DNA from: Garicola koreensis
GTDB lineage: Bacteria > Actinomycetota > Actinomycetes > Actinomycetales > Micrococcaceae
Direction of reading: 5' to 3'
Length of the DNA: 64,000 nucleotides
Assembly: GCF_014195445.1 (NCBI RefSeq)
Contig: NZ_JACIBT010000001.1
Span: 434,001-498,000, forward strand
A program made the position numbers and the translations under genes. The notes beneath the pieces are model-generated. The model made no database searches. It had not been told where the DNA came from and worked only from the letters and a program-made list of their open reading frames with translations. Positions 41,198-63,960 of this stretch are shown here, in pieces; position 1 is the first letter of the stretch, and each line of letters begins with the position of its first letter.

Positions 41198-41207
41198 CAG
41201 CACTTTT

Positions 41208-41385: not shown

Positions 41386-41395
41386 CCGGTCACAG

Positions 41396-41416: not shown

Positions 41417-41433
41417 TTAGGCCGACCACGTTG

Positions 41434-41485: not shown

Positions 41486-41540
41486 GCATCGTGTCCCGAA
41501 AGGAACAGGTCAGCACCACTGTCAGCGGTCCGCTGCGATC

Positions 41541-41813: not shown

Positions 41814-41819
41814 GGTGGA

Positions 41820-42719
41820 TCATCCTCCTGTGAATGGTTTTCCTCCGGTGACTGGAATGACGGCTCCGGCTGTGTAGCTGGCCTCCTCCGAGGCCAGGTA
41901 GACGTAGGCCCCGGCCAATTCGGCCGGCTGACCCGCACGGCCCAGGGGTGTGTCCTGCCCAAAGTGCTGCACCTTGCCCTGAGGAAAGTTAGTGCCGGGG
42001 ATCAGCGGAGTCCAGACGGGTCCTGGGGCGACTCCGTTGACGCGGATTCCCCTCTCACCCAGCTCCATACCGAGAACTTCGATGAAGGAGACCTGCGCGG
42101 CCTTCGTCATCGCATAGTCGAACAGCGGGGGAGCGGGGCCTGCCGCCTGGATGGAAGTGGTGGTGATGATGGAACAGCCCGGCCCCAGATGCGGAACCGC
42201 CGCCTGGGCCACAGCAATGTGGGAGACCAGATTGGTGTCGATGACTTTTCTGATCTCAGACATGGGGGTGTCTTCGAAGCGGGATCGCGCCCGCTGGACG
42301 GCGGCATTGAGTACGACGACGTCGAGCCCGCCCAGGTCAGAGACAGCGGCGTTGACCACCTCTTCGGCGGCACCGTCGGCAGTGAGGTCCTGAGGATAGG
42401 CCACCGCCTGCTGTCCGCTCTCGCGGATGAGGCCCAAGGTGGTCTGCGCGTCCTGGTGTTCCTGGGGCAGATGCACAATAGCCACGTCTGCACCCTCACG
42501 GGCGTAGGCAACTGCCACTGCGCGACCGATACCAGAGTCACCGCCGGTGATCAGGGCCTTCTTGCCCTGCAGCCGAGCTGCACCCACATAGCTGTCCTCC
42601 CCATGGTCCGGGGTGGGGTCAGTCTGCGAAGTATGACCAGGCTGACCGACATCTGCGTGCGCGGGCATATCGTCGTCGTAATGTTTGCTGTGTGGATCCT
42701 GCTGTGCCTTCTGCGTCAT
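41820..42719 (-). CDS. SDR-family oxidoreductase
   Basis: A 299-residue short-chain dehydrogenase/reductase of the YghA/YhdF group often annotated as a general-stress protein. The cofactor motif is ITGGDSGIGRAVAVAYA (about residue 57), and the catalytic Ser/Tyr/Lys appear in TTTSIQAAG and FDYAMTKAA. The first 45 residues form a polar tail typical of this group. AAGGAG precedes the ATG. It is in an operon between a zinc alcohol dehydrogenase and the DUF7218 gene. The substrate is unknown. Confidence 0.9.
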   Translation of the reverse strand: MTQKAQQDPHSKHYDDDMPAHADVGQPGHTSQTDPTPDHGEDSYVGAARLQGKKALITGGDSGIGRAVAVAYAREGADVAIVHLPQEHQDAQTTLGLIRESGQQAVAYPQDLTADGAAEEVVNAAVSDLGGLDVVVLNAAVQRARSRFEDTPMSEIRKVIDTNLVSHIAVAQAAVPHLGPGCSIITTTSIQAAGPAPPLFDYAMTKAAQVSFIEVLGMELGERGIRVNGVAPGPVWTPLIPGTNFPQGKVQHFGQDTPLGRAGQPAELAGAYVYLASEEASYTAGAVIPVTGGKPFTGG

Positions 42720-42760
42720 GACACTCCTTCGGGTAGGGGTCGGCAGTCAGGACGAACGAT

Positions 42761-43942: not shown

Positions 43943-44088
43943 TGCGGCGCCCTCCTAAGAGAGTCGGTTAGCGCTGGCCCGATGGGCTGTTCGTCGAGCG
44001 TGGACTGTTCACCGGGCGCTGACAGGGCCCACCGCACCGATACTGACCTGAGTATTTGCTGGTCATCACCCGGTGCCCAGGTTGAAGC

Positions 44089-44505
44089 TCAGCGGCGCCG
44101 GAACAGCAGCCTGGTCACCAGGCGCCGGCCCAGCATGAACACCGCCAGGGTGAGGGTGGCCACCATGACGAATGACAGCTGGACGCCACCGTCGGTGAAC
44201 AGCTGCCGCATCACCATGCCCGAGGCCACGGTGACGATCACCACGACGACGCCGCTGGGCCAGATGCTGCTGGGGTGCCGCCAGGACACGGTGATCAACC
44301 AGCCCAGCGCTAAGCCCATCAGAAACGGCCATGCCGTCGACCACACCTCGGCAGCACTGAGCCCGGAGGCGTGGGATCTGTTGCCCACGACTGCGAACAG
44401 CACGACCAGCACGGCATCGGCACCGAACCCGATCGCCGAACGTGCCGGGCGCACCGACGTGTGCGTGGTGAGGGCTGCGTCGTCGTGGGGGGATGGTTCG
44501 GCCAT
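44089..44505 (-). CDS. DUF3054 membrane protein
   Basis: A 138-residue protein with four hydrophobic segments (near residues 28-42, 55-72, 82-96 and 108-125) and a basic C terminus. It matches DUF3054, a small actinobacterial membrane family of unknown function (GFGADAVLVVLFAVVGNRSHASGL is the typical start). The ATG at 44505 keeps only a short hydrophilic lead. It is separated from the cassette downstream by about 146 nt without a gene. Confidence 0.75.
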   Translation of the reverse strand: MAEPSPHDDAALTTHTSVRPARSAIGFGADAVLVVLFAVVGNRSHASGLSAAEVWSTAWPFLMGLALGWLITVSWRHPSSIWPSGVVVVIVTVASGMVMRQLFTDGGVQLSFVMVATLTLAVFMLGRRLVTRLLFRRR

Positions 44506-44558
44506 GAATCCATTGCAACACAGCCCAGCCGATTCTCACTCTGGGGGAGGGGGAGGGG

Positions 44559-45218
44559 TCAGTGCGAGTCTGTCGGGGCGGCACGATGATCGACCTCCGC
44601 GACGCACACATCGATGCGTGAGATGGCCGCATCGAACGTTTCGACCCTTGTCCAGAGTCTGGGATGCTGCCGGTGAATCTGGTCCAGGGTGGCGCCGGAG
44701 GACCGAAGCGTGGCCAGATCGAAGCTGACGTTAGTGCGCGCACCGGTCACGGCTGCTCTGAGTGCGCCGAAGGCGACGACGACGTCGGCGATCAGCGCTG
44801 GGTTTCCGTGCGTTGACAACCAGCTCAGGTCATCAATTGCTTCTGTGGCGCGCTCGCCGACGGCAGAGGAGGTCGCCGCCGCATCAAGTGAGGCCCCGCG
44901 TATGGCATCGTCACGCTGGGGTCCGCGCTGCAGTTTGAACGCCGCGCCGAAAGCGTGCGAGGCTTCAGCGTCTTCGTCAGCCAGCTGCAGGGCAGTGCGC
45001 CGCAGCTCGTGCGCTCTGGCACGAACCTCGTGGAGCGTATCCCGCTGGTGCGGCTGCGCGTGGCTGTAGCCGGCAACCATGGAGGTCAGTGATGCTGCCA
45101 TGGCAAGCATCACCCCGGCTCCGGCGCCGCCGCCGGGGGAGCCGACGGACTCGCTCAAAGCGCGCGTCCACTGCTCAAGCGTCGAATTCTGCGTGGTGAC
45201 CTCATCTGAATCGGGCAT
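44559..45218 (-). CDS. cyclodeaminase/cyclohydrolase family protein
   Basis: A protein of about 219 residues resembling the formiminotransferase-cyclodeaminase C-terminal domain (FTCD_C), an all-helical fold that handles formimino- or methenyl-tetrahydrofolate. The family start is LSESVGSPGGGAGAGVMLAMAASLTSMVAGYS. Helices rich in Ala and Asp/Glu follow. No formiminotransferase domain and no histidine-degradation genes are nearby, so the role may be methenyl-THF conversion. The ATG at 45218 is preferred; CACACT lies 6 nt before it and earlier codons are not conserved-looking. Confidence 0.75.
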   Translation of the reverse strand: MPDSDEVTTQNSTLEQWTRALSESVGSPGGGAGAGVMLAMAASLTSMVAGYSHAQPHQRDTLHEVRARAHELRRTALQLADEDAEASHAFGAAFKLQRGPQRDDAIRGASLDAAATSSAVGERATEAIDDLSWLSTHGNPALIADVVVAFGALRAAVTGARTNVSFDLATLRSSGATLDQIHRQHPRLWTRVETFDAAISRIDVCVAEVDHRAAPTDSH

Positions 45219-45353
45219 GCCTCCAGTGTGTCCCACGCTGTGCATGTGGGAAACGTCTCGGCTCCCGGGAGTCCGGCAGAGCTCTACGGCGCAGTTGGGG
45301 AGAGGCGGATGATCGTCGCCGTTCTGTAATCCTGCCCGCCGTCTCGCTTTAAG

Positions 45354-45383
45354 TTGACATAATGTAGATTATCGGACTAATAA
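45354..45383 (+). promoter_or_regulatory. near-consensus promoter pointing antisense into the PIN toxin gene
   Basis: A perfect TTGACA (45354-45359) is 18 bp from TAATAA (45378-45383), in an AT-rich patch that is unusual here. It reads on the plus strand, opposite to the PIN gene that ends at 45402. No plus-strand gene follows, so any transcript would be antisense to the toxin gene. GATTAT/ATAATC also forms a small inverted repeat here. Confidence 0.4.
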
Positions 45384-45401
45384 TCACGACGGCGGCAGTC
45401 G

Positions 45402-45866
45402 TTACCGGCTGAAGTGTTTGACCTTGAGCTGCCGTTGGCGCTTGCGGAGCCATCGGGACAGGTGGTTGGCAACCTGCGATGCTGCGCGGAGCTGATCGGC
45501 AAGCTGCTGATCCATCGTGACGAGGGTGTCGTTGGCGCCGAGTGCTGCGGCGGTGATCCAGCAGGCGTTGTGAGACACCTTCCGACTTACGACCGAGCTC
45601 ACGATCCCGAAGAGGTGCGCCTGCTTGACAGTGTCTGAGAACGACGCCTGACGCAGCTCATCTCGACCGAAGTTCAGCGTGTCGGCGCGCCGGGACCTGG
45701 CTGCCTCATCAGGTGCTTCGAGGACGCCGCGTTCCAGCTCGGCAAGGGTGACTATATGGACGTTGGGGATGTCCTCGCCGGCGTTCTCGAGCAGCCACTC
45801 GATCAGGTTCGCATCTTGCAGCTCGACCCAACCGATGATCGCCGAGGTGTTTAGGATCAGCCCCAC
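45402..45866 (-). CDS. PIN-domain (VapC-like) toxin with altered active site
   Basis: A 154-residue PIN-domain protein, partner of the adjacent Phd-type antitoxin. Active VapC toxins cleave RNA with a cluster of acidic residues. Here the N-terminal motif reads LILNTSAII, where Asp is normal, and the C-terminal motif reads HNACWITAAAL, where N-D-x-W-I is usual. The middle Glu (TLAELERGV) and last Asp (LVTMDQQ) remain. With two acidic positions lost the nuclease may be inactive. The GTG start overlaps the antitoxin stop by 10 nt, typical of a toxin-antitoxin operon. Confidence 0.8.
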   Translation of the reverse strand: MGLILNTSAIIGWVELQDANLIEWLLENAGEDIPNVHIVTLAELERGVLEAPDEAARSRRADTLNFGRDELRQASFSDTVKQAHLFGIVSSVVSRKVSHNACWITAAALGANDTLVTMDQQLADQLRAASQVANHLSRWLRKRQRQLKVKHFSR

Positions 45867-46129
45867 AGAGCCTCGTCCTTCGCAGCCTGGACGGCGGTGT
45901 CGGCTCGCTTGGCGTCCATGAGTTCATCGAAGGCACCGGTGTCGCCGGTCGAGACCTCCTTGGCCTTCTTGACCAGCGCTTCGACAGGACGGCGGCGGTC
46001 GACGGCGCGAATCTCCGCGACGCGGTCTCCTCGGTTCATCAGATACACGACCTCGCCGGCACGCACTGCGTCCAGGACCCTTGTGGTGTGATTCCTCAGG
46101 TCCCTGATGCCGAATTCGCGCACTGCCAT
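45857..46129 (-). CDS. Phd/YefM-type antitoxin
   Basis: An antitoxin of about 90 residues from the Phd/YefM (prevent-host-death) family. The DNA-binding N terminus MAVREFGIRDLRNHTTRVLDAV is characteristic, followed by a basic strand (YLMNRGDRVAEIRAV) and a flexible C terminus that would wrap the toxin. The ATG at 46129 matches family starts. A version 10 codons longer adds nothing conserved. A 13-bp inverted repeat immediately upstream is a likely operator. It is followed by the PIN toxin. Confidence 0.85.
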   Translation of the reverse strand: MAVREFGIRDLRNHTTRVLDAVRAGEVVYLMNRGDRVAEIRAVDRRRPVEALVKKAKEVSTGDTGAFDELMDAKRADTAVQAAKDEALWG

Positions 46130-46133
46130 GCGA

Positions 46134-46172
46134 CCAGGTGTGGCACCTTTTGACGGCAAGTGCTACACCTGG
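46134..46172. promoter_or_regulatory. inverted-repeat operator of the Phd/PIN module
   Basis: CCAGGTGTGGCAC (46134-46146) and GTGCTACACCTGG (46160-46172) are 13-bp inverted repeats with one mismatch, 4 bp upstream of the antitoxin ATG. Such repeats are bound by Phd-type antitoxins to repress their own operons. Confidence 0.65.
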
Positions 46173-46312
46173 TCATGAGTCGAACGCCGATCCCCCAACT
46201 CTCGCCTCATCAACTCCCCTGCCGGCGACCACGTCGGCCCCGCCAGTGCTGGCAGAAACGTGTCAAACTCATCGACTTGCTTGGTCTGACGATCCGCCTG
46301 CGGGCTGCGGGT

Positions 46313-46342
46313 GTTCAACATTTGTTAAACCTGCGGTACGAT
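46313..46342 (+). promoter_or_regulatory. promoter and operator of the RHH/MazF module
   Basis: The palindrome GTTCAACA-TT-TGTTAAAC (46313-46330, one mismatch) covers a -35-like TTCAAC (46314-46319). TACGAT (46337-46342), 17 bp on, is the -10. The antitoxin ATG follows 7 nt later. A ribbon-helix-helix antitoxin bound here would shut its own promoter. Confidence 0.6.
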
Positions 46343-46349
46343 GGGTGCT

Positions 46350-46550
46350 ATGCCTGCATCGATCGGTTTCCGCCCGACGCCGGACGACGAGCGCATCCTG
46401 CGCGAGGCCGGCCAACCCGGCGAGAGCACCTCGGAGACGCTGCGCCGAGCGCTAAGGCTGCTGGATCATGAACGCTGGTTGGCCCAGTTCCGCGCAGACG
46501 CTGAGGCGCTGAAGAGCGAGGACCTCAACACGGAGCCTGAGGCCTGGTGA
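46350..46550 (+). CDS. ribbon-helix-helix antitoxin (MazE-like partner)
   Basis: A 66-residue antitoxin with a short ribbon-helix-helix N terminus (IGFRPTPDDERILREAGQPGESTSETLRRALRLLD) and an acidic tail that would bind the toxin. The ATG at 46350 is 7 nt after the -10 element, suggesting a leaderless mRNA. Its stop codon overlaps the toxin start (GTGA). Divergent from the Phd/PIN module. Confidence 0.8.
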   Translation: MPASIGFRPTPDDERILREAGQPGESTSETLRRALRLLDHERWLAQFRADAEALKSEDLNTEPEAW

Positions 46551-46888
46551 TCCGGGGGGCCGTCTATCGGATCGACCTGGGTCGCTCGCGAAGCCACGAG
46601 CAGGGTGGCAAGCGATTGGGGTTGGTCCTCTCCCCGTCGGATTCACCCTTGTCTGTTGTCACCGTGGTTCCTACGTCCACTTCGGCCGGACCATCGGTGC
46701 ATCGTCCCGAGCTTGAAGTCGCTGGTCGGCTGACGCGCTTACTGGTCGACCAGATTCGTTCGATCGACGTGGACTCCGTCGTCGGTGACCCCGTCGACTA
46801 CCTCGCCCGGGACCAACTTGGAGAGGTCGAGCTCGCGCTGGCCCACTACCTCGAGGTCCAGGACCTAAGCCCACCTCGCTCGTCATAG
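46547..46888 (+). CDS. MazF/PemK-family toxin
   Basis: A 113-residue MazF/PemK-type toxin, a sequence-specific mRNA endonuclease. The family start is visible (RGAVYRIDLGRSRSHEQGGKR), with the catalytic Arg in this region. LVLSPSD and VVPTSTSAG strands follow, and the conserved DQIRSIDVD with the catalytic Ser/Thr region lies in the middle. The GTG start overlaps the antitoxin stop by 4 nt, so the two are translationally coupled. Confidence 0.88.
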   Translation: MIRGAVYRIDLGRSRSHEQGGKRLGLVLSPSDSPLSVVTVVPTSTSAGPSVHRPELEVAGRLTRLLVDQIRSIDVDSVVGDPVDYLARDQLGEVELALAHYLEVQDLSPPRSS

Positions 46889-46910
46889 ATGGTGTCCGCT
46901 GGCCGGTGAG

Positions 46911-46969
46911 CCACTGAGTCACTCGACGTCGCTGGTCTCGAGGGCCATGAGAAGGGGTGCTCCCGGCTC
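46911..46969. repeat. direct repeat copy A flanking the BrnTA-like module
   Basis: A 59-bp copy beginning CCACTGAGTCACTCGACGTC and ending GGTGCTCCCGGCTC. It matches 47768-47828 with about five substitutions and a 2-bp indel. It lies between the MazF toxin and the third toxin-antitoxin module. No coding function was recognised in it. Confidence 0.8.
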
Positions 46970-47082
46970 CTCAGCTCCTGTCCCTGCCAGTAAAGCCACG
47001 AGATCGACTCGAAACAGCACAGAGTTGTCCCGACTTGTCCGAACGGTATCGTTCGATTTGATCAGCCCGGCGAGCGCTGCCC

Positions 47083-47391
47083 TCAAGCGTTCTGTTGAAA
47101 AACTTCCTGTTCCAACCGCGTAAGGCGTGCCGCAACACTGCTGCTGTCTTGTTCCTCTTCCCGCAGCCTCTCAAGTGCCCAGAGCCTGACCAGCGTCGAG
47201 ACCGGCAGGTTGGCCTCCTGGGCTGCGCGCTGAAGCTCGCTGTTCTCTTCTGGCGACAACCGCACCGAGATTACGGTGGGCTTCGCGCGGCTGCGACGAC
47301 TCACCTGCACATGATCGGGCAACTGCTCGGGCATTTCATAGTTCTCTGCCGCCGCGCCTTCCTTGGCGAGGAGGTTGTCGATTCTACTCAT
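47083..47391 (-). CDS. BrnA-like RHH antitoxin
   Basis: An antitoxin-like protein of about 102 residues. The N terminus (MSRIDNLLAKEGAAAENYEMPEQLPDHVQVSRR) contacts toxin in related pairs. A ribbon-helix-helix follows (PTVISVRLSPEENSELQRAAQEANLPVSTLVRLWALERL). The ATG at 47391 has AGGAAGTGG upstream. An in-frame start 16 codons earlier lacks one. It follows the BrnT-like gene by 40 nt, the toxin-first order of BrnT/BrnA systems. Most of the pairing call rests on gene order and length. Confidence 0.7.
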   Translation of the reverse strand: MSRIDNLLAKEGAAAENYEMPEQLPDHVQVSRRSRAKPTVISVRLSPEENSELQRAAQEANLPVSTLVRLWALERLREEEQDSSSVAARLTRLEQEVFQQNA

Positions 47392-47431
47392 GGTTCCACT
47401 TCCTCGTAGTTGCGCTGGTCGCGCTGGTTTG

Positions 47432-47695
47432 CTATCCATGCGTTTCTCCCCCCCACTGCCCGTCTGGCTGCTCGCGTGGGTCTGCGGCCGCGTCTACAAG
47501 AATCACCGTCAGGACCGTGCCCACGCTGGGTGAGTAGCCAATGACTCGGACCGCATAGCCCGAACGGCTGGCTGGATCGGGCACAAGCCAGACCGCGTAA
47601 TCATCGTCGACCGCCTCATCAGCCCAACTCGGCTCTATAGCGTGACGTAGCCGGATGTAGGCAGCACGCTTATGCCAATCCACCCGGATGCTCAC
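47432..47695 (-). CDS. BrnT-like toxin, small basic/acidic protein
   Basis: An 87-residue protein with an N-terminal DWHKRAAYIRLRHAIEPSWADEAVDDD stretch and the strands YAVRVIGYSPSVGTVLTVILVD. This resembles the compact RelE-like fold of BrnT ribonuclease toxins and is a frequent companion of RHH antitoxins in actinobacteria. Catalytic residues cannot be assigned. The GTG at 47695 lies 6 nt after minus-strand TAGTAT. The upstream region holds 10-bp-spaced repeats. The toxin label is moderate; it could be an uncharacterised RNase-like protein. Confidence 0.6.
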   Translation of the reverse strand: MSIRVDWHKRAAYIRLRHAIEPSWADEAVDDDYAVWLVPDPASRSGYAVRVIGYSPSVGTVLTVILVDAAADPREQPDGQWGGETHG

Positions 47696-47697
47696 AC

Positions 47698-47714
47698 CTA
47701 CATACTACTACATA
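47698..47714. promoter_or_regulatory. phased CTACATA repeats over the BrnT-like promoter
   Basis: CTACATA occurs at 47698-47704 and 47708-47714, one helical turn apart, and overlaps the minus-strand -10 hexamer (plus 47702-47707). Short phased repeats over a promoter suit a ribbon-helix-helix repressor, here the BrnA-like antitoxin. Confidence 0.45.
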
Positions 47715-47767
47715 ACACTACGAGATGTCACGGTTCAGGATATCGACCCGCACGCCCTGCCGCGCTG

Positions 47768-47828
47768 CCACTGAGCCACTCGACGTCGCTGGTCTCGACG
47801 GCCATGACAGCGGGGGTGCTCCCGGCTC
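47768..47828. repeat. direct repeat copy B flanking the BrnTA-like module
   Basis: A 61-bp copy of the repeat at 46911-46969 in the same orientation. The pair brackets the third toxin-antitoxin module (47083-47695), so the module may have inserted, or duplicated this segment on arrival. Confidence 0.8.
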
Positions 47829-47955
47829 AGTACGGCGTCAGCCGGAGATCATCTCGACGGGGTTTCTGCGAGTCGATTAAGCTGAGAGTTCAGATGTTGA
47901 TGCAGATCACCATGCTGTAGGCCCGTCACAGACCGAGCAGATCAAGGAGGCTCTC

Positions 47956-48441
47956 ATGATCGAATGGTTCGGCGAGAACCTCTGGGCTGCTTGGCTGTCG
48001 TTGACGTTCGTGCTTTTGGTCCTGGAAGTCTTCACCCTGGACATGCTTTTCCTGATGCTCTCCGCCGGCGCATTGGCGGCGATGACCGTCTCCTTGGCCG
48101 GCGGCGACGGATGGATCCAGGTAGTCGTGGCAGCGATCACCGCGCTGCTGATGCTCGGTGCGGTGCGGCCGGTGGCTCTGAAGCATCTGAAGAAGGGTTC
48201 GCCGGACCAACTGACCAATATTGACCGGATGCAGGGCATGGAGGCCCATGCCCTCGAGTCGGTGACCGACACTGAAGGGCTGGCAGAAGTTGACGGAGGT
48301 ACGTGGACGGCCCGCGTGGTCGGCGGGCACACCATCGAAGCAGGCACCTCGGCGGTGGTCGAGTCCGTCGACGGAGCCACTGTCTATCTCAAGCCGACCT
48401 CACGCATCGATTGGCCTGACCCGCACTCCCCCCAGGCCTGA
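47956..48441 (+). CDS. NfeD-family membrane protein
   Basis: A 161-residue NfeD-like protein. Three hydrophobic segments lie within residues 8-75, and the C-terminal half is the small OB-fold domain (GMEAHALESVTDTEGLAEVDGGTWTARVVGG). NfeD proteins work with the SPFH/stomatin protein encoded next door, probably in membrane-domain organisation. A perfect AAGGAGG ribosome site precedes the ATG. Confidence 0.9.
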   Translation: MIEWFGENLWAAWLSLTFVLLVLEVFTLDMLFLMLSAGALAAMTVSLAGGDGWIQVVVAAITALLMLGAVRPVALKHLKKGSPDQLTNIDRMQGMEAHALESVTDTEGLAEVDGGTWTARVVGGHTIEAGTSAVVESVDGATVYLKPTSRIDWPDPHSPQA

Positions 48442-55167: not shown

Positions 55168-55803
55168 TCACCGGTCGGTGAGCCAGGCGACGACGACGTC
55201 ACCAATCATGGAGCGCAGATGGTCACGGTGAGCATCCGCGCCGAGGTCGCGGTCAAAGAGGTACCCGAAGGTGTACTTATTGGCGACCTGGAATACGCAG
55301 TAGGAGCTGATGAGCAGATGCACGTCGACGGCGTCGACGTCGCTGCGGAAATGGCCCTCAGCCCGCCCCCGGGAAAGGATCATGTCCAGCACTCCAACCG
55401 CGGGTTTGCTCAGATCTCGAAGCGCTTCGATCTGACGGATGTAGCGACCGCGGTGGATGTTCTCAATCGCTACCAGCCGGATGAACTCGTCATTGGCCAG
55501 GTGGTGGTCGTAGGTGAGCTCGGCCAACTGGCGCAGTGAGTCGGCCGGAGCCAGCTCATCGACGTGCAGGGTCTGCTCCTTGTCACGGATACCACGGTAG
55601 ACGTTCTCCAGGACGGCAAGGTAAAGCTGCTCCTTGCCTCCGAAGTAGTAGTAGATCATCCGCTTGGTCGTGCGGGTGCGGCGAGCGATCTCATCGATCC
55701 GCGCACCAGAGTATCCGGCATCGGCGAAGACCCCGGTGGCAACCTCCAGCAGTTCAGCCCGAGTGCGAACAGCGTCGCGCTGGCGGATGCGTCGCTCTGT
55801 CAA
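55168..55803 (-). CDS. TetR-family regulator of the shikimate-type cluster
   Basis: A TetR-family repressor of about 211 residues. The helix-turn-helix is GYSGARIDEIARRTRTTKRMIYYYFGGKEQLYLAVLENVY (residues about 29-70). The ligand domain follows, with a TetR_C-like AEGHFRSDVDAVDVHLLISSYC region. The start is a TTG at 55803 with GGAGG 6 nt upstream; no ATG or GTG start gives the family's length. It is the last gene of the cluster, 67 nt after the PTE-family gene. It is the best candidate to bind the operator repeat shared by the two cluster promoters. Confidence 0.88.
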   Translation of the reverse strand: MTERRIRQRDAVRTRAELLEVATGVFADAGYSGARIDEIARRTRTTKRMIYYYFGGKEQLYLAVLENVYRGIRDKEQTLHVDELAPADSLRQLAELTYDHHLANDEFIRLVAIENIHRGRYIRQIEALRDLSKPAVGVLDMILSRGRAEGHFRSDVDAVDVHLLISSYCVFQVANKYTFGYLFDRDLGADAHRDHLRSMIGDVVVAWLTDR

Positions 55804-55870
55804 TGTGAACCTCCGTTTGTCGCCTCGAAGGCTACCAGAACCTCGACCCTGGCTCCCCCAGTCAGCGAGC

Positions 55871-56842
55871 TCACTCTCCCACCAGCACGCGGCGCGGGTT
55901 GTCCACGAGCAGCTGGCGCTCCAGGCGGCTGTCGATTCCGGCGGCGCGCAGCTGCGGCAGGATCGTGGTGTGCAGATGGTCCATTCGCCACTGCGGAGCA
56001 TGCCTGGCTCTCCACGTGGGTGGTGTCATGCGGCTGAACACCGCCGCATCCTGGGAGAGCACGATGTGGTCCTGGTATCCCAGCTCCAGCAGGGTCTGCA
56101 GCGTCCTGAGCCGATCGGCGTCCCGACCCATATGGGTCATGCCGAACCGGTCAAACCCAATGAACGAGCCAGCCTCAGCCAGTTCGCGCAGGTAGCCAAT
56201 ATCGGTCGAGTCGCCGCTGTGGCCTATGACAACCCTGCCCAGAGGCACCCCGAACTGGCCGAGGAGCTGCTGCTGCTCCAGACCGCTGCGGGTCGTAGGG
56301 TCAGAGTGTGTTGTGATCGGCACACCGGTCTGACGCTGAGCCGCGGCCGCGGCGCGGAAGACGCGGGCGACGTCCTCGGTGATCCCCCGGTCATCGGAGG
56401 CGACCTTGATCATGCCCGCCCGGACTGATGTGCCGGCGATCTCAGCTGTGATGTCATTCAGAAACATCTCGGTCAGCGGATCGGGGCCGGTGACCAAACG
56501 GCCCGGCCCGTTGAGCCGGAAGAAGGGGGGCAGGACATCACTGGTGTAGTAGCCGGTGGAGACCACGATCTGCACCGCAGAGTCGTGGACCAGCTGAGCA
56601 ATCCGCCCCACATCGCGGCCGAGCCCGGGGACGGTGAGATCCACGATGGTCTCCACGCCCAGGGCGGAGAGCTGGTCCAGCTGTGCGCGGAGCCTGCTTC
56701 CCACCCGGTCTTCGTCCCACTCCGGGTGCGGAAGGTTCAGGTCCAACTCGGGGTCGCTGACGATCAGGTGTTCGTGGATCAGGGTGGTGCCGAGCTGATC
56801 CGCCGGCACCACCCCGGTCACTGACTCGACGAGCGAGGTCAC
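55871..56842 (-). CDS. phosphotriesterase-family hydrolase
   Basis: A protein of about 323 residues from the phosphotriesterase/lactonase (PTE) family, with a binuclear metal site. The ligands are visible: LIHEHL (HxH), MIKVASDD (the carbamylated Lys), TTHSDP and IGHSGDS (two His), and LSQDAAVF (Asp). Members hydrolyse lactones or phosphotriesters. The GTG at 56842, 4 nt after the dctP stop, is preferred because upstream residues in the frame are not conserved. Its place in a shikimate-type operon suggests a lactone or ester of a cyclic acid as substrate. That is inference. Confidence 0.82.
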   Translation of the reverse strand: MTSLVESVTGVVPADQLGTTLIHEHLIVSDPELDLNLPHPEWDEDRVGSRLRAQLDQLSALGVETIVDLTVPGLGRDVGRIAQLVHDSAVQIVVSTGYYTSDVLPPFFRLNGPGRLVTGPDPLTEMFLNDITAEIAGTSVRAGMIKVASDDRGITEDVARVFRAAAAAQRQTGVPITTHSDPTTRSGLEQQQLLGQFGVPLGRVVIGHSGDSTDIGYLRELAEAGSFIGFDRFGMTHMGRDADRLRTLQTLLELGYQDHIVLSQDAAVFSRMTPPTWRARHAPQWRMDHLHTTILPQLRAAGIDSRLERQLLVDNPRRVLVGE

Positions 56843-56846
56843 CTGC

Positions 56847-57962
56847 TCACTCTGAGGTGCTGCGGATGTCTTCGAAGACCTGCAGCGAGTCACCCTCCAA
56901 TGTGTCCTGCAGGTGGCTGACGGCCTGCTCCTGGAATGCGTCAACGTCTACATCATCGATGATTTCCCACTCATCGCCGGACTCCCACTCCTGCAGAGTG
57001 GCCTCCTCATCCTCGGCGACACAGTTGGTGACCTCAGTCACAGCCGTCTCCACCGCTGCGTTCAGAGCCTCCTGCTGCTCCTCATTGAGGTCATCCCACA
57101 CCTCCGAGATAATCACCAAATTGGTGTTGAGCTGGTGGGCGCTGAGGTTCAGGTAATCCTGCACCTCAGCCAGGCTCTCCGACTCGATGTTCGTCAGCGG
57201 GTTCTCCTGACCGTCCACTGCCCCCTGCTGCAGTGAGAGGTAGAGCTCCTCATAGGCGACTTCGGTGGCGTCAGCCCCGAGCGCTTCGGCGTTCATCAGG
57301 TACTGCGGAGATCCGGGGAAGCGGATCCGCAGACCCTCCAGGTCCTCAGGGGTGCGGATAGGCTGGTTCGACGTGAAGTGCCGGGCCCCGGCAGACCAGG
57401 TGCCCAGGGCGCGCACGCCGGTCTCCGCCGCGAAGTCCTCAATCATCTGTTCGGCCTCGGGGCTGGCCATGTAGTTGGCCAGATGGTCCGGGCCGTCGAA
57501 TGCGTAGGCCGCGTCCAGCACGCTGACGGGCTCATAGACTGCCCCGAGCGCGGAGGCGCCCTGAATGTCGATATCGATGTCGCCGGAAGCAACCGAAGCA
57601 ATGCGGTCGGCATCGCCGCCCAGCTGGCTGGCGCCGTAGATCTCGATGTCTAGGCCGACGTCGGCGGCAGCGACCTCTTCCTGGATGACGTCGGCACCGC
57701 ACCGTGCTTGGGGCTGGTCGTCGTTGTAGCTGTGGGCCAAGGTCAGCGATGTGGCTCCGTTGGTCTGCTCGCCGCCGCCGTCGCCGCCGCCGTCGCCGCC
57801 GCCGTCGCCGCCGCCGTCGCCGCCGTCGCCGCCGCCGTCGCCGCCGCCGTCGCCGCCGCCGTCGTCTGCGCCGTCGTCGTTGCCGCCGCAGGCGACCAGG
57901 GCCAGGGCCGGCAAGGTGAGCAGCGCCGCCCAGCGAGTGCCGTTTCGGGGTGCGTGTGACAT
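56847..57962 (-). CDS. dctP: TRAP transporter solute-binding lipoprotein
   Basis: A TRAP-type solute receptor of about 371 residues. The N-terminal signal with lipobox LALVAC (Cys about residue 25) marks a surface lipoprotein. A linker of (GGGD)n units follows to about residue 66. The binding domain then starts with SLTLAHSYNDDQP and contains GLRIRFPGSPQYLMNAEALGA, where a conserved Arg usually holds a carboxylate. That fits a shikimate-like acid. The ATG at 57962 has AAAGGA upstream; one 5 codons earlier lacks a site. It lies between the shikimate dehydrogenase and PTE-family genes. Confidence 0.9.
   Translation of the reverse strand: MSHAPRNGTRWAALLTLPALALVACGGNDDGADDGGGDGGGDGGGDGGDGGGDGGGDGGGDGGGEQTNGATSLTLAHSYNDDQPQARCGADVIQEEVAAADVGLDIEIYGASQLGGDADRIASVASGDIDIDIQGASALGAVYEPVSVLDAAYAFDGPDHLANYMASPEAEQMIEDFAAETGVRALGTWSAGARHFTSNQPIRTPEDLEGLRIRFPGSPQYLMNAEALGADATEVAYEELYLSLQQGAVDGQENPLTNIESESLAEVQDYLNLSAHQLNTNLVIISEVWDDLNEEQQEALNAAVETAVTEVTNCVAEDEEATLQEWESGDEWEIIDDVDVDAFQEQAVSHLQDTLEGDSLQVFEDIRSTSE
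57770..57861. repeat. (GGGD)n-coding tandem repeat in dctP
   Basis: About 90 bp of nearly perfect GCCGCCGTC-based units, mostly 12 bp, with one 9-bp unit. The minus strand encodes Gly-Gly-Gly-Asp repeats that join the lipid anchor to the binding domain. Units are multiples of 3 bp, so copy changes keep the frame but alter linker length. Confidence 0.85.
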
Positions 57963-57976
57963 GGTGATTCCTTTCA

Positions 57977-58867
57977 TTAGTGAACAGGCTGTGAGGAGTT
58001 CTCAGCAGCTACAAGGTGCTTCAGGTGAGTAAGCATGGCAGAGCGGTCCGCGATTTTGCCGGTGAAGAGTTCAAAGGCATCGGCTGCCTGGTGCATCGCC
58101 ATACCCAGGCCCGAGATCGTGCGGCATCCCCGGTGCCGGGCAGTCAGCAGCAGCTCGGTCTCCACGGGCCGATAGACGACGTCGCAGACCCACAGCGGGG
58201 GCCGCAGCAGGTTCGCATCCACGGCGGAGCCGGGGTGGTCGGCCATGCCGATCGGGGTGGCGTTGATCAGGCCCTGGGCCAGTGGCAGCAGGCTGGGCAG
58301 CGCGTCGACGGAAGCGGCATCCACAGCTTGGTGATGCAGTGCAGAAATGTTGTTGGCCAGGTCCCGGGCCCGGTGGGGATCGGCGTCGACGATGGTGAGG
58401 TGTTCGGCCCCTCGCATAGCCACAGCATGGGATACGGCGGATCCGGCACCCCCGGCGCCGATCAGCACGATCCGACCCAGTGGTTCGCTTCCCAGCGCGT
58501 CGTCCAGGGCAGCCCGGAAGCCGGAGACGTCGGTGTTATGGCCGATCAGCCGGCCGTTCTGCCAGCGCACAGTATTGACGGCACCCACCATGTGCGCGCT
58601 CGTCGACATCTCGTCCAACAGTGAAAGGGCGGTCTGCTTGACCGGATAGGTCAGGTTCAGTCCGTCGAAGCCGAAGGCGCGTGCGCTGCGGATCAGTTCC
58701 ATCAGTCTTTGCCGCGGATCATTGTCCGGACTGAACTCAATGGTGCGGTACAGGTACCGCAGACCCTGGCGGGCCCCTTCCATCTCATGCATCGGCGGAG
58801 TCAGTGAGGGGCCTACCCCGTGGCCGATGAGTCCGATCAGAACTGAACGGTTCAGCGTGGTGGTCAC
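57977..58867 (-). CDS. catabolic shikimate/quinate dehydrogenase
   Basis: A 296-residue shikimate dehydrogenase. The N terminus GLIGHGVGPSLTPPMHEMEG follows the SLTPxMHE pattern of catabolic quinate/shikimate dehydrogenases rather than the SPxxHN of biosynthetic AroE. Catalytic Lys and Asp lie in LTYPVKQ and GHNTDVSGF. The cofactor loop GAGGAGSAV is followed by TIVDADPHRA, where an Asp suggests NAD use. The GTG start overlaps the dctM stop by 4 nt. It would oxidise shikimate to 3-dehydroshikimate for QuiC. Dual quinate activity is possible. Confidence 0.88.
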   Translation of the reverse strand: MTTTLNRSVLIGLIGHGVGPSLTPPMHEMEGARQGLRYLYRTIEFSPDNDPRQRLMELIRSARAFGFDGLNLTYPVKQTALSLLDEMSTSAHMVGAVNTVRWQNGRLIGHNTDVSGFRAALDDALGSEPLGRIVLIGAGGAGSAVSHAVAMRGAEHLTIVDADPHRARDLANNISALHHQAVDAASVDALPSLLPLAQGLINATPIGMADHPGSAVDANLLRPPLWVCDVVYRPVETELLLTARHRGCRTISGLGMAMHQAADAFELFTGKIADRSAMLTHLKHLVAAENSSQPVH

Positions 58868-60138
58868 AGTCCCAGCACCTCCGGCAGGTAGAGGACCGCA
58901 TCCGGGAAGAGGACGGCTAGGACAGTGACGATCACGATTGGTGCCAGGAAGGGCAAGGCCCCTTTGAAGACCTCGCCGACCTTGGTGTCAGAGACGGCCG
59001 CGGTGACGAAGAGCACCGTGCCCACCGGAGGGGTCAGCAGGCCGATCATCAGCGAAAGAATGAGTACCACGCCCAACGCGATCGGGTCGATGCCGTACTG
59101 CTGCGCGATCGGCAGCAGCACGGGAACCACGAGCACCAGAACTGCGGTCGCGTCGATGACAGTGCCGAGCACCAGCATCAGCAGCATCACCAGAAGCAGG
59201 AAGACGGTGGGGCTTTCGGTGAGCGACAGCAGCTGCTCCGTCAGCATCTGTGGAAGACGTTCCCGGGCGAGGATGTAGCCCAGCAGTGCTGCTGCGGCAA
59301 CGATGATCATGATGGCACCGGTGGTCATGACGGTCTCGCGGATGGCCGAAAGCAGTCCGCGCCATGTCAGTGACCGCCCAATGAGCGCGATCAGCAGCAC
59401 ATAGGCGACTGCGACGCCGGCCGCTTCGGTCGGTGTGAAGAGTCCGCCGAGGATTCCTCCGAGGATGATCACGGGGGTCAGGATCGGCAGCAGGATGCCC
59501 TTGGAGGTGGAGATCAGTGTGGCGAGGTCGAACGTCTCTCGAGAGACGTTGGGCTCGCGCTTGAGCATCAGCCAGACGACGACGCACAGGCCTACGGCCA
59601 CCAGCAGAGCCGGAACGACAGCTGCGGCGAAGAGCGCACCGGTGGAGGTTGCCGCCAGGCCGGCGAAGATGACTGCGGGAATGCTGGGCGGCATCACCGG
59701 CGCGATCAGCGAGGAGGTGGAGGAGATGCCGGTGGCGAACCGGCGACTGTAGCCGTTGCGCACCATCGTAGGGATCTGGACCTTGCCCAGGGCGGCTGAA
59801 TCGGCGACTGCTGATCCGCTCATCCAGGAGAAGCCGACGCTGACCCCGACGGTGACATATCCCAGGCTCCCCCGCACCCGGGCAAGCAGCGCCATGGCGA
59901 AGTTGAAGAGCCGGTCTGCGATCCCGGCGTGATTGGCCAGCGCTCCCAGGAAGATGAACAGCGGAACCGCCAGCAGCGGGAAGCTCTGCGCCGCGGCGGC
60001 GACCTGTCGCAGGCTCATCCCGGAGGACTGTCCGTCGATGAGCATGTACACCAGGGAGGGTCCGAGGAAGGCGAATGCCACAGGCACCCGAAGGAGAAGC
60101 AGAATGGCGATGCTTGCCGCCAGCAGCAGGAGGGTCAC
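58864..60138 (-). CDS. dctM: TRAP transporter large membrane subunit
   Basis: A 424-residue DctM-type subunit, the main transmembrane channel of a TRAP transporter, with about 12 hydrophobic segments. Typical stretches are present: VPLFIFLGALANHAGIADRLF, SGSAVADSAALGKVQIPTM and PPVGTVLFVTAAVS. The GTG start overlaps the dctQ stop by 4 nt, and the stop overlaps the dehydrogenase start, so dctQ-dctM-dehydrogenase are translationally coupled. A 20-bp perfect palindrome lies inside the gene at 59531-59550. Confidence 0.95.
   Translation of the reverse strand: MTLLLLAASIAILLLLRVPVAFAFLGPSLVYMLIDGQSSGMSLRQVAAAAQSFPLLAVPLFIFLGALANHAGIADRLFNFAMALLARVRGSLGYVTVGVSVGFSWMSGSAVADSAALGKVQIPTMVRNGYSRRFATGISSTSSLIAPVMPPSIPAVIFAGLAATSTGALFAAAVVPALLVAVGLCVVVWLMLKREPNVSRETFDLATLISTSKGILLPILTPVIILGGILGGLFTPTEAAGVAVAYVLLIALIGRSLTWRGLLSAIRETVMTTGAIMIIVAAAALLGYILARERLPQMLTEQLLSLTESPTVFLLLVMLLMLVLGTVIDATAVLVLVVPVLLPIAQQYGIDPIALGVVLILSLMIGLLTPPVGTVLFVTAAVSDTKVGEVFKGALPFLAPIVIVTVLAVLFPDAVLYLPEVLGL
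59531..59550. other. perfect 20-bp palindrome inside dctM
   Basis: AACGTCTCTCGAGAGACGTT is its own reverse complement. It encodes NVSRET-like residues of DctM on the minus strand. It is not the parS sequence. It may be chance or a protein site. Confidence 0.4.
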
Positions 60139-60671
60139 TGGGTCTGCACCTCCGAGGGATGTGTGGGGTCTGAGGGCAGCACCGGGCCGTGCAGAGTGAT
60201 GTCTGCGGCGCTGAGCAGCGAACGCAGCACGGTGCTGATCATGCCCACCAGCACGGGGATGTAGACCAGTGCCATGGACATGCCCAGTACTGGGGAGCGC
60301 AGGATTCCCTGGGTCTGGACTAGGGTCAAGGCTTCCACGGCCAGACCGGTTGCAACTGCTGCCACAACGAGCAGAGCAAAGATCTGCACGGTGCGCACCA
60401 GCTGTGGACGCGGAAGAATGTCCACGACCTCCAGGGTGATGTGGCCGCGGTGGGTGATCAGCACCCCGGCCACCGAGAAGGTGAGCCAGAGGAGCGCGAA
60501 CCGTGAGACTTCCCCGGTCCAGGCGATGCTTTCTCCCGGCAGGTGGCGCTGGGCGGCCTGGATGCCGATCAGTACGAAGATGGTGAGCAGCATCAGAGCG
60601 CCCAGACTGATTTCTGCGGCCGTGAGGACTTTGCCGGCTCGCCGCAGCACGGTGCGGAGCGGAGAACTCAT
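60135..60671 (-). CDS. dctQ: TRAP transporter small membrane subunit
   Basis: A 178-residue DctQ-type subunit with four hydrophobic segments. The family motif region is WTGEVSRFALLWLTFSVAGVLITHRGHITLE. It pairs with DctM to form the membrane part of the transporter. AAGGAG lies 5 nt before the ATG. Its own promoter with the cluster operator sits about 60 nt upstream, between it and quiC. It may therefore be expressed both from this promoter and by read-through from quiC. Confidence 0.9.
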   Translation of the reverse strand: MSSPLRTVLRRAGKVLTAAEISLGALMLLTIFVLIGIQAAQRHLPGESIAWTGEVSRFALLWLTFSVAGVLITHRGHITLEVVDILPRPQLVRTVQIFALLVVAAVATGLAVEALTLVQTQGILRSPVLGMSMALVYIPVLVGMISTVLRSLLSAADITLHGPVLPSDPTHPSEVQTQ

Positions 60672-60730
60672 GCGACTCCTTGATTCTCTGGTCAGCAGTG
60701 GGTGAGCTGGGTCACCATGGTGTCGGTATG

Positions 60731-60759
60731 AACGTACCGGGTATTACATTAGACGTCAA
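60731..60759 (-). promoter_or_regulatory. dctQ promoter with operator repeat
   Basis: On the minus strand TTGACG (plus 60754-60759), a 17-bp spacer and TACGTT (plus 60731-60736) form a promoter. AATGTA-N8-TACGTT (plus 60731-60750) is an inverted repeat with one mismatch that overlaps spacer and -10. The same repeat is found at the quiC promoter. Confidence 0.75.
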
Positions 60760-60791
60760 TATTTCGCTGCGAATCTGTGCCGGCGGCTTGC

Positions 60792-62570
60792 TCAGCTGAG
60801 GAGGGAGCGCTGAGCGGCCAGACGCACAGGCGCATTTGGGGCGCCGTATCCGTCATACTGGCCGCGGCGTTCCACCATCTCCAGGAAGAAGTCACCGATG
60901 GTGGGGGTGTAGAAGTGGATGAACTCGCCGGCATCGTCCTGATCGTAGAGCAGGTCGAGATCCTTCAGCCGATGAATGAAGTCTGGGGCCAGCGGGAACC
61001 GAGCGGCCAAGTCGTCGTAGTAGTTGTCCGGCACGGCCAGGAACTGCAGGCCTCGGGAGCGCGCGTCGGCGGCCACCGCGATGATGTCGTCACAGGCCAG
61101 GGCGATGTGCCGCGGCGGTACCGGTGCAGTGGGTGGAGCGAGGTTGAGCGGCAGCCGCACAATGCGGTCGGCGGTATGCATCACCTGGCTCCTGACCAGT
61201 CCCAGCGGCCCGGGGACTTCGGCGGCCGGGGTGGCCTCCAAGCCCAGCACGCTGGTCGCGAAGAGCACAGCTTCTTCGAAGTCCTGCCAAGGATAGGAGA
61301 GATTGACGTGGTCGATGGTGCCGGAGTCACCGTTGGGCGCCAAGCCGCCTTCAAACTCCGAGATCCAGCCGTCCGGGCCGATCTGATCATTCCAGAAGAT
61401 CTCCGTGCCGTCCGGCGAAGAGACCCCCCGTAGATTCTGCTCGCCGGTGGAGGTATTGCGGAAGACCGGTGGGGCTCCCAAGGCTTCGGCCCGCTCAGCG
61501 GCCGGAGCGCTGTCTGCGACCTCCAGGCCCAGCCCGGCGATCTTGGGGGTTTGCAGCTTGGGCTGCTCGTTGAGGATGATCCGCGCCTCGCCGTAGGACC
61601 AGAGGCGGACGGGCTTACGCCGATGTCGGCCGCGGAAGGCAAACCCGAGCTGGTCCATCAGATGATCCACCTCAGCCAAGTCGACTCCGGCGATCTCGAC
61701 GAAATCGATGGCCCGCGGGGGCTGCGCCGCAGGCAGGATGCTCTGGCGGCGGTGATCCAGGGCAGCAGCCTGGTCCGCCAACCACGTGAGCGAACGCTGA
61801 GCGTGGGCCGCCGTGCGGTAGACGTCGGTCTGCCGGAAGGTGTCGTTGAAGACCTCCAGCGACAGCGGACCGCGGTAGCCCGCGCGCAGAACATGGAACA
61901 GGAACTGGGCAAGGTCGAAGGCACCCTCCCCCGGGAACAGTCGGTGGTGCCGACTCCAGGACAGCAGGTCCATATCCAGTTGGGGGGCATCGGCCAGTTG
62001 GAGGAAGAAGATCTTCTCCCCCTCGATCTGTTCGATGCCTGCCGGGTCGTGCCCGCGGGAGAGGATGTGAAAGCTGTCGAGGCAGGTGCCGAGGTTGGGG
62101 CGGTCTGCCGCCTGGACCAGGCGCCAGGCGTGCCTGTAGTCACTGACGTACCGGCCCCAGGCCAGCGCCTCATAGGCGATGCGAACCCCGTACTCAGCCG
62201 CAGCGTCGGCAAGCTCTCCCAGCTGCCGGGCCGCCACCTGGTCGTCATCGATGCTCGCGGTGCCAGCATTGCTGCAGACCAGCATCAGGTCAGCGCCGAG
62301 ACGGTTCATGGTGCGGAATTTCTCCCGAGCGCGCCTGAGGTTCTCCTCGAAGACCTCATCCTCCACGCCCTCTGCGTCACGGAAAGGCTGAAACATGTCG
62401 ATCCTCAGACCCAGTCGCTGACACAGGGCGCGGATCTCTTCGGGGGATTCGTAAGCGACTGTGAGGTCTGCATCCATGATCTCGACGCCGTCGAAACCTG
62501 CTTTCGCGCAGGCGTGCAGTTTCTCTGTGAGGCTGCCCGACAGGCAGACGGATGCGATCGAGGTCACCAT
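60792..62570 (-). CDS. quiC: QuiC-type 3-dehydroshikimate dehydratase/HPPD-like fusion
   Basis: A 592-residue fusion. Residues 1-270 are a xylose isomerase-like TIM barrel, the bacterial 3-dehydroshikimate dehydratase that makes protocatechuate. Metal ligands are visible as Glu134 (AYEALAWG), Asp165 (CLDSFH), Gln191 (FLQLADAP) and Glu239 (SLEVFND). Residues about 290-592 are a 4-hydroxyphenylpyruvate dioxygenase-like VOC domain that keeps two His (IDHVNLSYP, PRHIALAC) and a Glu (FFLEMVER). This matches the QuiC1 architecture known from Pseudomonas. The ATG is 7 nt after the -10 element (leaderless). It is the first gene of the cluster. Confidence 0.93.
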   Translation of the reverse strand: MVTSIASVCLSGSLTEKLHACAKAGFDGVEIMDADLTVAYESPEEIRALCQRLGLRIDMFQPFRDAEGVEDEVFEENLRRAREKFRTMNRLGADLMLVCSNAGTASIDDDQVAARQLGELADAAAEYGVRIAYEALAWGRYVSDYRHAWRLVQAADRPNLGTCLDSFHILSRGHDPAGIEQIEGEKIFFLQLADAPQLDMDLLSWSRHHRLFPGEGAFDLAQFLFHVLRAGYRGPLSLEVFNDTFRQTDVYRTAAHAQRSLTWLADQAAALDHRRQSILPAAQPPRAIDFVEIAGVDLAEVDHLMDQLGFAFRGRHRRKPVRLWSYGEARIILNEQPKLQTPKIAGLGLEVADSAPAAERAEALGAPPVFRNTSTGEQNLRGVSSPDGTEIFWNDQIGPDGWISEFEGGLAPNGDSGTIDHVNLSYPWQDFEEAVLFATSVLGLEATPAAEVPGPLGLVRSQVMHTADRIVRLPLNLAPPTAPVPPRHIALACDDIIAVAADARSRGLQFLAVPDNYYDDLAARFPLAPDFIHRLKDLDLLYDQDDAGEFIHFYTPTIGDFFLEMVERRGQYDGYGAPNAPVRLAAQRSLLS

Positions 62571-62577
62571 GGCCCGG

Positions 62578-62606
62578 AATGTACCAAAGATTACATTAGC
62601 GGTCTA
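62578..62606 (-). promoter_or_regulatory. quiC promoter with operator repeat
   Basis: On the minus strand TAGACC (plus 62601-62606), a 17-bp spacer and TACATT (plus 62578-62583) form a promoter. AATGTA-N8-TACATT (plus 62578-62597) is a perfect inverted repeat over the -10. It shares CTAATGTAAT and GGTAC with the dctQ promoter. Confidence 0.75.
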
Positions 62607-62706: not shown

Positions 62707-63960
62707 GTGTCCGATCGCCCATCAGCTGCTGCTCCCCTGTTCCCCAAACGGGACGTTGTGGTCGGGGCACTGATACCCGCCTTCATCTTCAGCGTCGGTA
62801 ATGGGGCGATTCTGCCGATCGTCGCCCCCTTCGCTGTGGGACAGGGCGCCACGCTGGCGGCGGCCGGCGTCATCGCCGCCATGCTTCCGCTCGGCCAGAT
62901 CCTCGCCGATCTGCCCGCAGGTGCCCTGGCATCAAAGATCGGCGACCGTGCGGCGATGGTCCTGGCCGGATCTCTGGCTGCGCTGGCATTCCTCGGTGCT
63001 GCTGCGGCGCCGTCGCTGATCATCTTGGGGGCAGCGGTGCTGCTGGTCGGTGCTGCCAATGCCGTCTTCCACCTGGCCCGCCACTCCTACCTCACCGAGA
63101 TCACACCACCGCTGAAGCGAGCACGCGTGCTCTCCACGCTGGGCGGTGTGCACCGGATCGGACAGTTTGCAGGTCCATTCCTAGGTGCCGGGATCACCCA
63201 CTTTTCGGATATGCGCGCAGTGTTCATCCTGGCGGTCATCACTGCTGCGGCGGCCTCGGTCACCGTCTGGCTGGCCCGACCGACGCGGAAGCACCGGTCG
63301 CAGACTGATTCCACTCAGACCGCGGAGGTGGCCGATAAGCCACGTTTCTGGCAGGTGCTCTCTGCCCATCGCAGAATGCTGGCCACCATGGGTGCTGTGG
63401 GCATGCTGGTGGGCGCAGCCCGTGGCGCCCGCCAACAGGTGATCCCGCTGTGGGGCGAATTCGTCGGTGTGGACCCGACGACCATCTCGCTGCTCTTCGG
63501 ACTGGCCGGCGGAATCGACATGCTGCTCTTCTACCCGGCCGGAAAGGTCATGGATACTTTCGGCCGACTCTGGCTGGGCGTGCCGGCCATGGTCCTGCTC
63601 GGGGTGGCCATGGCCACCTTCCCGCTCACCTCCACCACTGCTGGCCTGGCGATCGTGGCCATGCTGCTGGGCTTCGCCAACGGCCTGGGTTCGGGGATCA
63701 TGATGACCATCTCCTCAGACATCTCCCCCAGCCACGGGCGGCCCCAGTTCCTGGGGGCGTGGCGACTGCTGACCGACATTGGGCTCGGGGCCGGGCCGCT
63801 GATCCTCTCTGCCGGAGCGGCCCTGGGATCGTTGGCGGCAGGGATCTGGGCGGCGTCACTTATGGGCCCGCTGGCCGCAGCCGGCATGCAGAAGTGGTTG
63901 CCGCGCTACTCAGCTCACGCGAATCAGACCACTCGCCGTGCCGCCGGACTGATCGACTGA
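62707..63960 (+). CDS. MFS transporter divergent from the quiC cluster
   Basis: A 417-residue major facilitator with 12 hydrophobic segments. The loop 2-3 signature appears as ADLPAGALASKIGDRAAMV, and the central cytoplasmic loop (KHRSQTDSTQTAEVADKPR) is near residue 197. A GTG start follows TATGCT (62693-62698) by 8 nt. It is divergent from quiC over 136 bp and carries no copy of the operator repeat of its own. It could carry an aromatic acid or export a product, but the family is too broad to say. Confidence 0.85.
   Translation: MSDRPSAAAPLFPKRDVVVGALIPAFIFSVGNGAILPIVAPFAVGQGATLAAAGVIAAMLPLGQILADLPAGALASKIGDRAAMVLAGSLAALAFLGAAAAPSLIILGAAVLLVGAANAVFHLARHSYLTEITPPLKRARVLSTLGGVHRIGQFAGPFLGAGITHFSDMRAVFILAVITAAAASVTVWLARPTRKHRSQTDSTQTAEVADKPRFWQVLSAHRRMLATMGAVGMLVGAARGARQQVIPLWGEFVGVDPTTISLLFGLAGGIDMLLFYPAGKVMDTFGRLWLGVPAMVLLGVAMATFPLTSTTAGLAIVAMLLGFANGLGSGIMMTISSDISPSHGRPQFLGAWRLLTDIGLGAGPLILSAGAALGSLAAGIWAASLMGPLAAAGMQKWLPRYSAHANQTTRRAAGLID

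Follow-up and report, generated by a model that had tools for sequence, protein, structure and literature searches.

A TRAP-linked gene cassette in Garicola koreensis, probably for the catabolism of quinate and/or shikimate

A 64,000-nucleotide stretch of Garicola koreensis DNA (64 kb; the window) carries seven genes on its minus strand, at 55168-62570, that combine candidate enzymes of quinate and shikimate breakdown with a tripartite ATP-independent periplasmic (TRAP) transporter and a TetR-type regulator. The genome is ~80% complete, and statements on the whole genome are to be read at that coverage. The genes and two predicted operators are as follows.

60792..62570, minus strand: quiC, two-domain 3-dehydroshikimate dehydratase (TIM barrel plus 4-hydroxyphenylpyruvate dioxygenase (HPPD)-like domain); Pfam AP_endonuc_2 and Glyoxalase; PDB 5hmq at E 2.8e-130; 10 of 10 active-site residues
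60135..60671, minus strand: dctQ, TRAP small permease; PF04290 at E 9.3e-15
58864..60138, minus strand: dctM, TRAP large permease; PF06808 at E 1.3e-104; TIGR00786 above cut-off
57977..58867, minus strand: shikimate dehydrogenase (SDH), NAD quinate/shikimate dehydrogenase type; NF009201 above cut-off; PDB 3jyo at E 5.6e-69; S-x-T and Asp (VDAD) motifs
56847..57977, minus strand: dctP, TRAP solute-binding protein with a lipoprotein-like start; PF03480 at E 1.8e-58; TIGR00787 above cut-off
55871..56842, minus strand: phosphotriesterase-family hydrolase (PTE), cassette-specific group; PF02126 (on the longer reading frame); H23, H25, K146, H179, H208, D265
55168..55803, minus strand: tetR, proposed cassette regulator; PF00440 and PF17938 (on the longer reading frame)
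62576..62599, no strand: predicted TetR operator 1, 24-bp palindrome located 5 bp before the start codon of quiC; 28.5 bits with a matrix built without the window
60729..60752, no strand: predicted TetR operator 2, located 57 bp before the start codon of dctQ; 24.0 bits, the window's second-best site

For PTE and tetR the mechanical open reading frames are longer, and the shorter starts given by a codon-usage caller were used. A first-pass annotation of this DNA had counted the same seven minus-strand genes, and this count holds; PTE was among them and was left undiscussed. It placed the end of the locus at 62606, 36 bp past the first base of quiC's start codon, which takes in predicted operator 1. 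Genes of the dctQ-tetR block are tightly packed (gaps of -4, -4, -1, 4, and 67 bp), and 120 bp separate quiC from dctQ. Because the 24-bp palindrome precedes quiC and again dctQ, the cassette is not one simple operon, as had been proposed; two TetR-operator units fit better.

QuiC has the C-terminal HPPD-like domain (Glyoxalase and Glyoxalase_5), and its best PDB match, QuiC1 of Pseudomonas putida (5hmq), a bacterium of a different phylum, aligns across both domains. The active site of QsuB/QuiC1 is given in PMC7442255 as Arg64, Leu97, Glu134, Leu136, Asp165, His168, Gln191, Ser206, Arg210, and Glu239. All ten of the residues so listed are found at the same numbers in the window's QuiC. Domains, structural match, and residues thus point to a QuiC-type dehydratase/HPPD-like fusion, as the first reading had it. 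The best named PDB relative of SDH is the quinate/shikimate dehydrogenase of Corynebacterium glutamicum (3jyo). Where SDH has S-x-T and VDAD, the second AroE of the genome has S-x-S and ARSPER. We read S-x-T and the Asp cofactor residue as marks of the quinate/shikimate substrate type and the NAD type, respectively. By the 3jyo match and by motifs unlike those of the other AroE, SDH resembles the NAD-type quinate/shikimate dehydrogenases, which agrees with the catabolic type assigned before.

The product of QuiC would be protocatechuate. A pcaHGBDC cluster and a 4-hydroxybenzoate 3-monooxygenase-like gene exist on the window's own contig, away from the cassette, and the protocatechuate direction of the pathway suggested at the outset is supported. 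The pcaD-like gene has a best score of 211, just below the PcaD naming cut-off (255.85). PTE was considered as a substitute for PcaD and rejected, since this pcaD-like gene adjoins pcaHGBC. Three related loci show linkage of pca genes with the cassette itself: pcaHGBDC with a pcaI-like gene and a thiolase gene in Cellulomonas humilata (L065), pcaHGBDC in L162, and pcaHG in Agromyces (L041).

DctP, DctQ, and DctM are all encoded in one locus with clear profile matches, so the complete TRAP system reported earlier is borne out. Cys30 of DctP is invariant in the rows of 13 aligned relatives, and no other DctP was found in the genome. The nearest solved structures gave no assignment of its ligand, the top matches being named sialic-acid or generic TRAP receptors. 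Judged by its sequence, DctP is too divergent to choose between quinate and shikimate; both are left possible because it is only 33% identical to the quinate receptor of Sinorhizobium meliloti. Two other TRAP systems, one in Corynebacterium deserti and one adjoining a mannonate dehydratase gene in S. meliloti, were set aside for their different gene neighbourhoods.

The motif of the operator was picked by eye, and the loci used for building its matrix are therefore not independent evidence. The 24-bp position matrix rests on 26 sites (two of them identical) that precede quiC or tetR in loci other than the window's. Its two best sites in 64 kb are the predicted operators at 62576-62599 and 60729-60752; the third-best scores 10.2 bits. 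The best score among 300 Markov-simulated 64-kb windows was 16.2. Twenty letter shuffles, a smaller control to which the Markov runs are preferred, gave one maximum of 22.7 bits and a mean of 10.1, and both window sites exceed 22.7. Exactly two sites of at least 17 bits, one before quiC and one before dctQ, are found in the window and in all 12 distinct relatives with a TetR-type cassette (stretch scanned). Among 80 QuiC loci, 36 have both TetR and an operator of at least 18 bits, 42 have neither, two (L107 and L117, with no TetR past the cut-off in the stretch scanned) have the operator alone, and none has TetR alone. When the matrix was rebuilt without the S. meliloti site, a site of at least 18 bits was present in 18 of 18 TetR loci not used for building.

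The order-wide survey covered 396 genomes. DctP is found at E 1e-40 or better in 27 of them, the window's own included; of the 26 others, 21 were examined and five left out. QuiC and SDH adjoin DctP in 12 of the 13 closest (G410 is the exception), and the first ten have the full seven-gene set. Among the eight more distant genomes, SDH and QuiC are near DctP in G450, G601, and G343, G524 has QuiC ~8 kb from DctP without SDH, and four have neither in the stretches examined. From the side of QuiC, 80 named loci, the best 80 of 496 confirmed, were compared, some of them in stretches cut by contig ends: TRAP is found in 12, PTE in five, and AroQ in 21 of the stretches scanned. Since the gene set recurs in other families, it is not a product of chance.

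Three types of cassette can be distinguished (the duplicates L043 and L156, L044 and L157, and L054 and L166 are counted once). Type 1, with TetR, occurs in 12 distinct relatives (L031, L040, L041, L043, L044, and L158-L164). These relatives, in the same order as the window, include Microbacterium, Agromyces, and two Demequina, and five more share the Demequina genus number. The Cellulomonas locus L065 has the cassette set without TetR and with a LacI-type gene nearby. Type 2 (L054, L066, L070, and L165), found in Zhihengliuella, Isoptericola, and Promicromonospora, has TRAP, SDH, and QuiC with no PTE or TetR match. No operator site was found in the type 2 and Cellulomonas stretches scanned. 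Type 3 (L086, L093, L095, L096, and some further genomes) has a more distant TRAP. In this third layout, seen also in L169-L171, the distant TRAP stands with SDH and TetR, and AroQ is present in L086, L093, L095, and L096. These four have FAD-binding and GFO/IDH/MocA oxidoreductases between dctM and dctP and IclR genes nearby (families scanned in L086 only); the layout may serve another cyclitol acid. A further QuiC locus, L062, on a contig labelled as an Acidobacteria metagenome-assembled genome, has the SDH-quiC pair in an Arthrobacter-like layout and is perhaps a mis-binned contig.

In both the DctP and the DctM tree, 20 rows form one group with 100/99 support: the window and 19 rows of relatives (two identical pairs among them) from types 1 and 2 and L065. 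All 20 adjoin QuiC and SDH. Within it the window sits among type 1 cassettes (Microbacterium, Agromyces, Demequina, and others) and apart from Zhihengliuella, a member of its own family. Support for the 14-row type 1 group is 80/76 in DctP and 100/99 in DctM; the place of the window inside it has 94/88 in DctP and is not repeated by DctM. G457, the only further genome of the genus in the comparison, gave no DctP match at E 1e-40. This grouping away from Zhihengliuella, together with the lack of a match in G457, suggests horizontal transfer of the cassette.

A locus of S. meliloti 1021 resembles that of the window. TRAP genes stand side by side with a TetR and an SDH, each of the latter two 46% identical to its counterpart in the window, and a palindrome between tetR and dctQ scores 17.1 bits with the matrix omitting it, the best of 16 kb and below the 18-bit mark. 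The locus differs in its DctP (33% identical) and DctM (36%), which are not the closest TRAP relatives, and no quiC or PTE match is found in the 16-kb stretch. The record, which has no gene names, was equated by position and gene order with SMb20034-37 of PMC3454389. The receptor is reported there to bind D-quinate with a Kd of 5.9 nM and shikimate with a Kd of ~100 uM, the latter perhaps from contamination.

Taken together, these genes probably form a transferable cassette for breaking down quinate and/or shikimate. As read from gene linkage, DctP would bind the acid outside the cell, for uptake through DctQM. Going by the enzyme families, SDH would then oxidise shikimate to 3-dehydroshikimate and quinate to 3-dehydroquinate, and AroQ, encoded in the cassette in some relatives and elsewhere on the chromosome in others, would convert 3-dehydroquinate to 3-dehydroshikimate. 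QuiC would dehydrate the latter to protocatechuate, which would enter the pcaHGBDC branch of the beta-ketoadipate pathway. TetR is predicted to repress two promoters by binding the palindrome before quiC and before the dctQ-dctM-SDH-dctP-PTE-tetR block, and a pathway compound may release it. PTE, at a guess, would act inside the cell on a lactone or ester and release quinate or shikimate from it.

Several observations weigh against this interpretation. DctP is more similar to the C. deserti TRAP receptor (38% identity) than to the S. meliloti quinate receptor (33%), its closest relationship is not to quinate receptors of the SMb20036 type, and it is placed apart from SMb20036 in a tree carrying long-branch warnings. 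This TRAP is missing from 68 of the 80 QuiC loci, so the pathway can do without the importer. No aroQ is found in the stretch scanned for nine of the 12 TetR-type relatives. QuiC scores 510.5 bits against an equivalog cut-off of 1200 in NCBIfam NF042435, a cut-off that is a naming threshold and not a defining residue. SDH stays below the cut-off of the NCBIfam NAD quinate/shikimate model NF010631 (251.5 vs 515) and passes that of the broader NF009201 (358.4 vs 235). Finally, the operator is absent from the window genome's pca cluster, where no site scores above 6.4 bits.

The role of PTE bears on what is imported. It matches PDB 4if2 (E 7.7e-79), and its residues H23, H25, K146, H179, H208, and D265 form the metal-ligand set H, H, K, H, H, D. 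By sequence it belongs to the same family as the phosphotriesterase-like lactonases 4if2 and 2vc5, from which it differs in the letters after the last metal ligand and in its linkage to quinate/shikimate genes. PTE homologues at E 1e-50 or better exist in 35 of the 396 genomes. Among the matches listed, the 11 proteins with at least 47% identity (the window's included) are all in cassettes, and the others listed have at most 45%. In 13 of 14 aligned cassette PTEs the last metal ligand is followed by SRxTPP[ST]WR (L160 has STATPPSWR), a motif absent from 15 other aligned homologues; before this ligand, Gln replaces His in the window, L065, and L160. On these sequence features, PTE forms a cassette-specific group. 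It is conceivable, and to us somewhat unlikely, that what enters the cell is a conjugate or lactone (e.g., quinate lactone or an acylquinate), from which PTE would release quinate or shikimate as the first step. Besides the conserved motif, the distribution of PTE speaks for this: it is present in all 12 distinct TetR-type relatives and in Cellulomonas, and its five occurrences among the 80 QuiC loci are all with TRAP, with none in the 68 loci without TRAP (stretches scanned, at the cut-offs used). Against it, the type 2 TRAP cassettes of Zhihengliuella, Isoptericola, and Promicromonospora have no PTE, and this TRAP group can therefore occur without needing it. A search of open-licence literature found no paper joining lactonase, phosphotriesterase, and quinate.

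The first-pass annotation had favored shikimate or 3-dehydroshikimate over quinate, with the lack of a 3-dehydroquinate dehydratase in the window as its argument. A cassette for these two compounds only, with quinate unused, is in our view unlikely. The lack itself is borne out for the type II enzyme by an AroQ query of the 64-kb window, and searches of the window genome (~80% complete) with type I and type II models gave no dehydroquinate dehydratase. In the same-genus genome G457, aroQ follows an acs-like gene, which we take to be acs. The matching contig of the window genome, C25 (9863 bp), ends inside that gene, the match running to the contig end at position 9863. Because C25 ends before aroQ would follow, the absence is weak evidence; going by this synteny, aroQ was probably lost at the contig end, and a true lack of the enzyme was set aside. 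While neither the window cassette nor the stretches scanned for the nine relatives mentioned above have aroQ, which favors the shikimate-only proposal, AroQ is found between quiC and dctQ in three of the 12 (L031, L040, and L163). In G705 (L163) the cassette AroQ is an extra, because a separate type I enzyme exists elsewhere in the genome. In G316 (L031) the cassette AroQ (G316:C5:431929-432339) is the sole dehydroquinate dehydratase found with type I and type II models, and since no second one was found it may serve both breakdown and aromatic biosynthesis. With AroQ inside the cassette in these relatives and the window's aroQ probably lost at a contig end, the earlier substrate argument fails. 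The 3jyo relationship of SDH also argues for quinate, as does the analogous S. meliloti receptor, which, though only 33% identical to DctP, prefers quinate >15,000-fold over shikimate according to PMC3454389. A third idea, in which the substrate is a different cyclitol acid or carbasugar and the specificity of QuiC and SDH has shifted, can appeal to the distance of DctP from receptors of solved structure and is very improbable, given the intact QuiC active site and the pca genes or aroQ linked in some relatives.

Quinate and shikimate are abundant plant acids. The qsuABCD system of C. glutamicum, whose dehydrogenase is a top PDB match of SDH, has the major facilitator superfamily (MFS) importer QsuA and the LysR-type regulator QsuR in place of TRAP and TetR, and its dehydroquinate dehydratase QsuC is in the operon. 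Its QsuB is described in PMC7442255 as a two-domain dehydratase of the QuiC1 class, a feature shared with the window's QuiC. For Rhizobium leguminosarum, PMC3333776 reports a TRAP system for protocatechuate and an MFS importer for shikimate. The TRAP route had been called little described in actinobacteria. This stands for that phylum in so far as the open-licence literature yielded no actinobacterial paper on TRAP transport of quinate or shikimate and only PMC3454389 on a quinate TRAP. Because the receptor in the published account of PMC3454389 adjoins related SDH and TetR genes in S. meliloti, the idea of quinate uptake by TRAP is not new outside actinobacteria. Among the titles listed from the same literature, none fitted a TetR tied to quinate or shikimate. 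The chemistry is known; the importer and the TetR operator of this cassette were not found described in actinobacteria.

Beside the cassette, at 62707-63960 of the window, lies an MFS transporter gene oriented away from quiC; as a query it gave no match adjoining other cassettes in the stretches scanned. Farther away, at 40000-48000, G+C is ~63% vs 64-67% elsewhere, and the genes scanned there look ordinary (a short-chain dehydrogenase/reductase, an alcohol dehydrogenase, a DUF3054 protein, and an FTCD_C protein).

A wider proposal is possible, and we advance it tentatively. One TetR with a 24-bp operator (consensus CTAATGTAC-N6-GTACATTAG) may serve Actinomycetota and Alphaproteobacteria as a general quinate/shikimate switch. 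In Micrococcales-type genomes it would control a transferable cassette that couples a TRAP importer with a new hydrolase of the PTE family, and this enzyme would cleave a lactone or ester to release quinate or shikimate. The operator offers a means of finding the same pathway in other genomes. The phosphotriesterase family is known mostly for side activities, and the cassette PTE raises the question of natural substrates in this family. In the cassette, an importer, a regulator with its likely binding site on the DNA, and a hydrolase of unassigned function are available for testing as a set.

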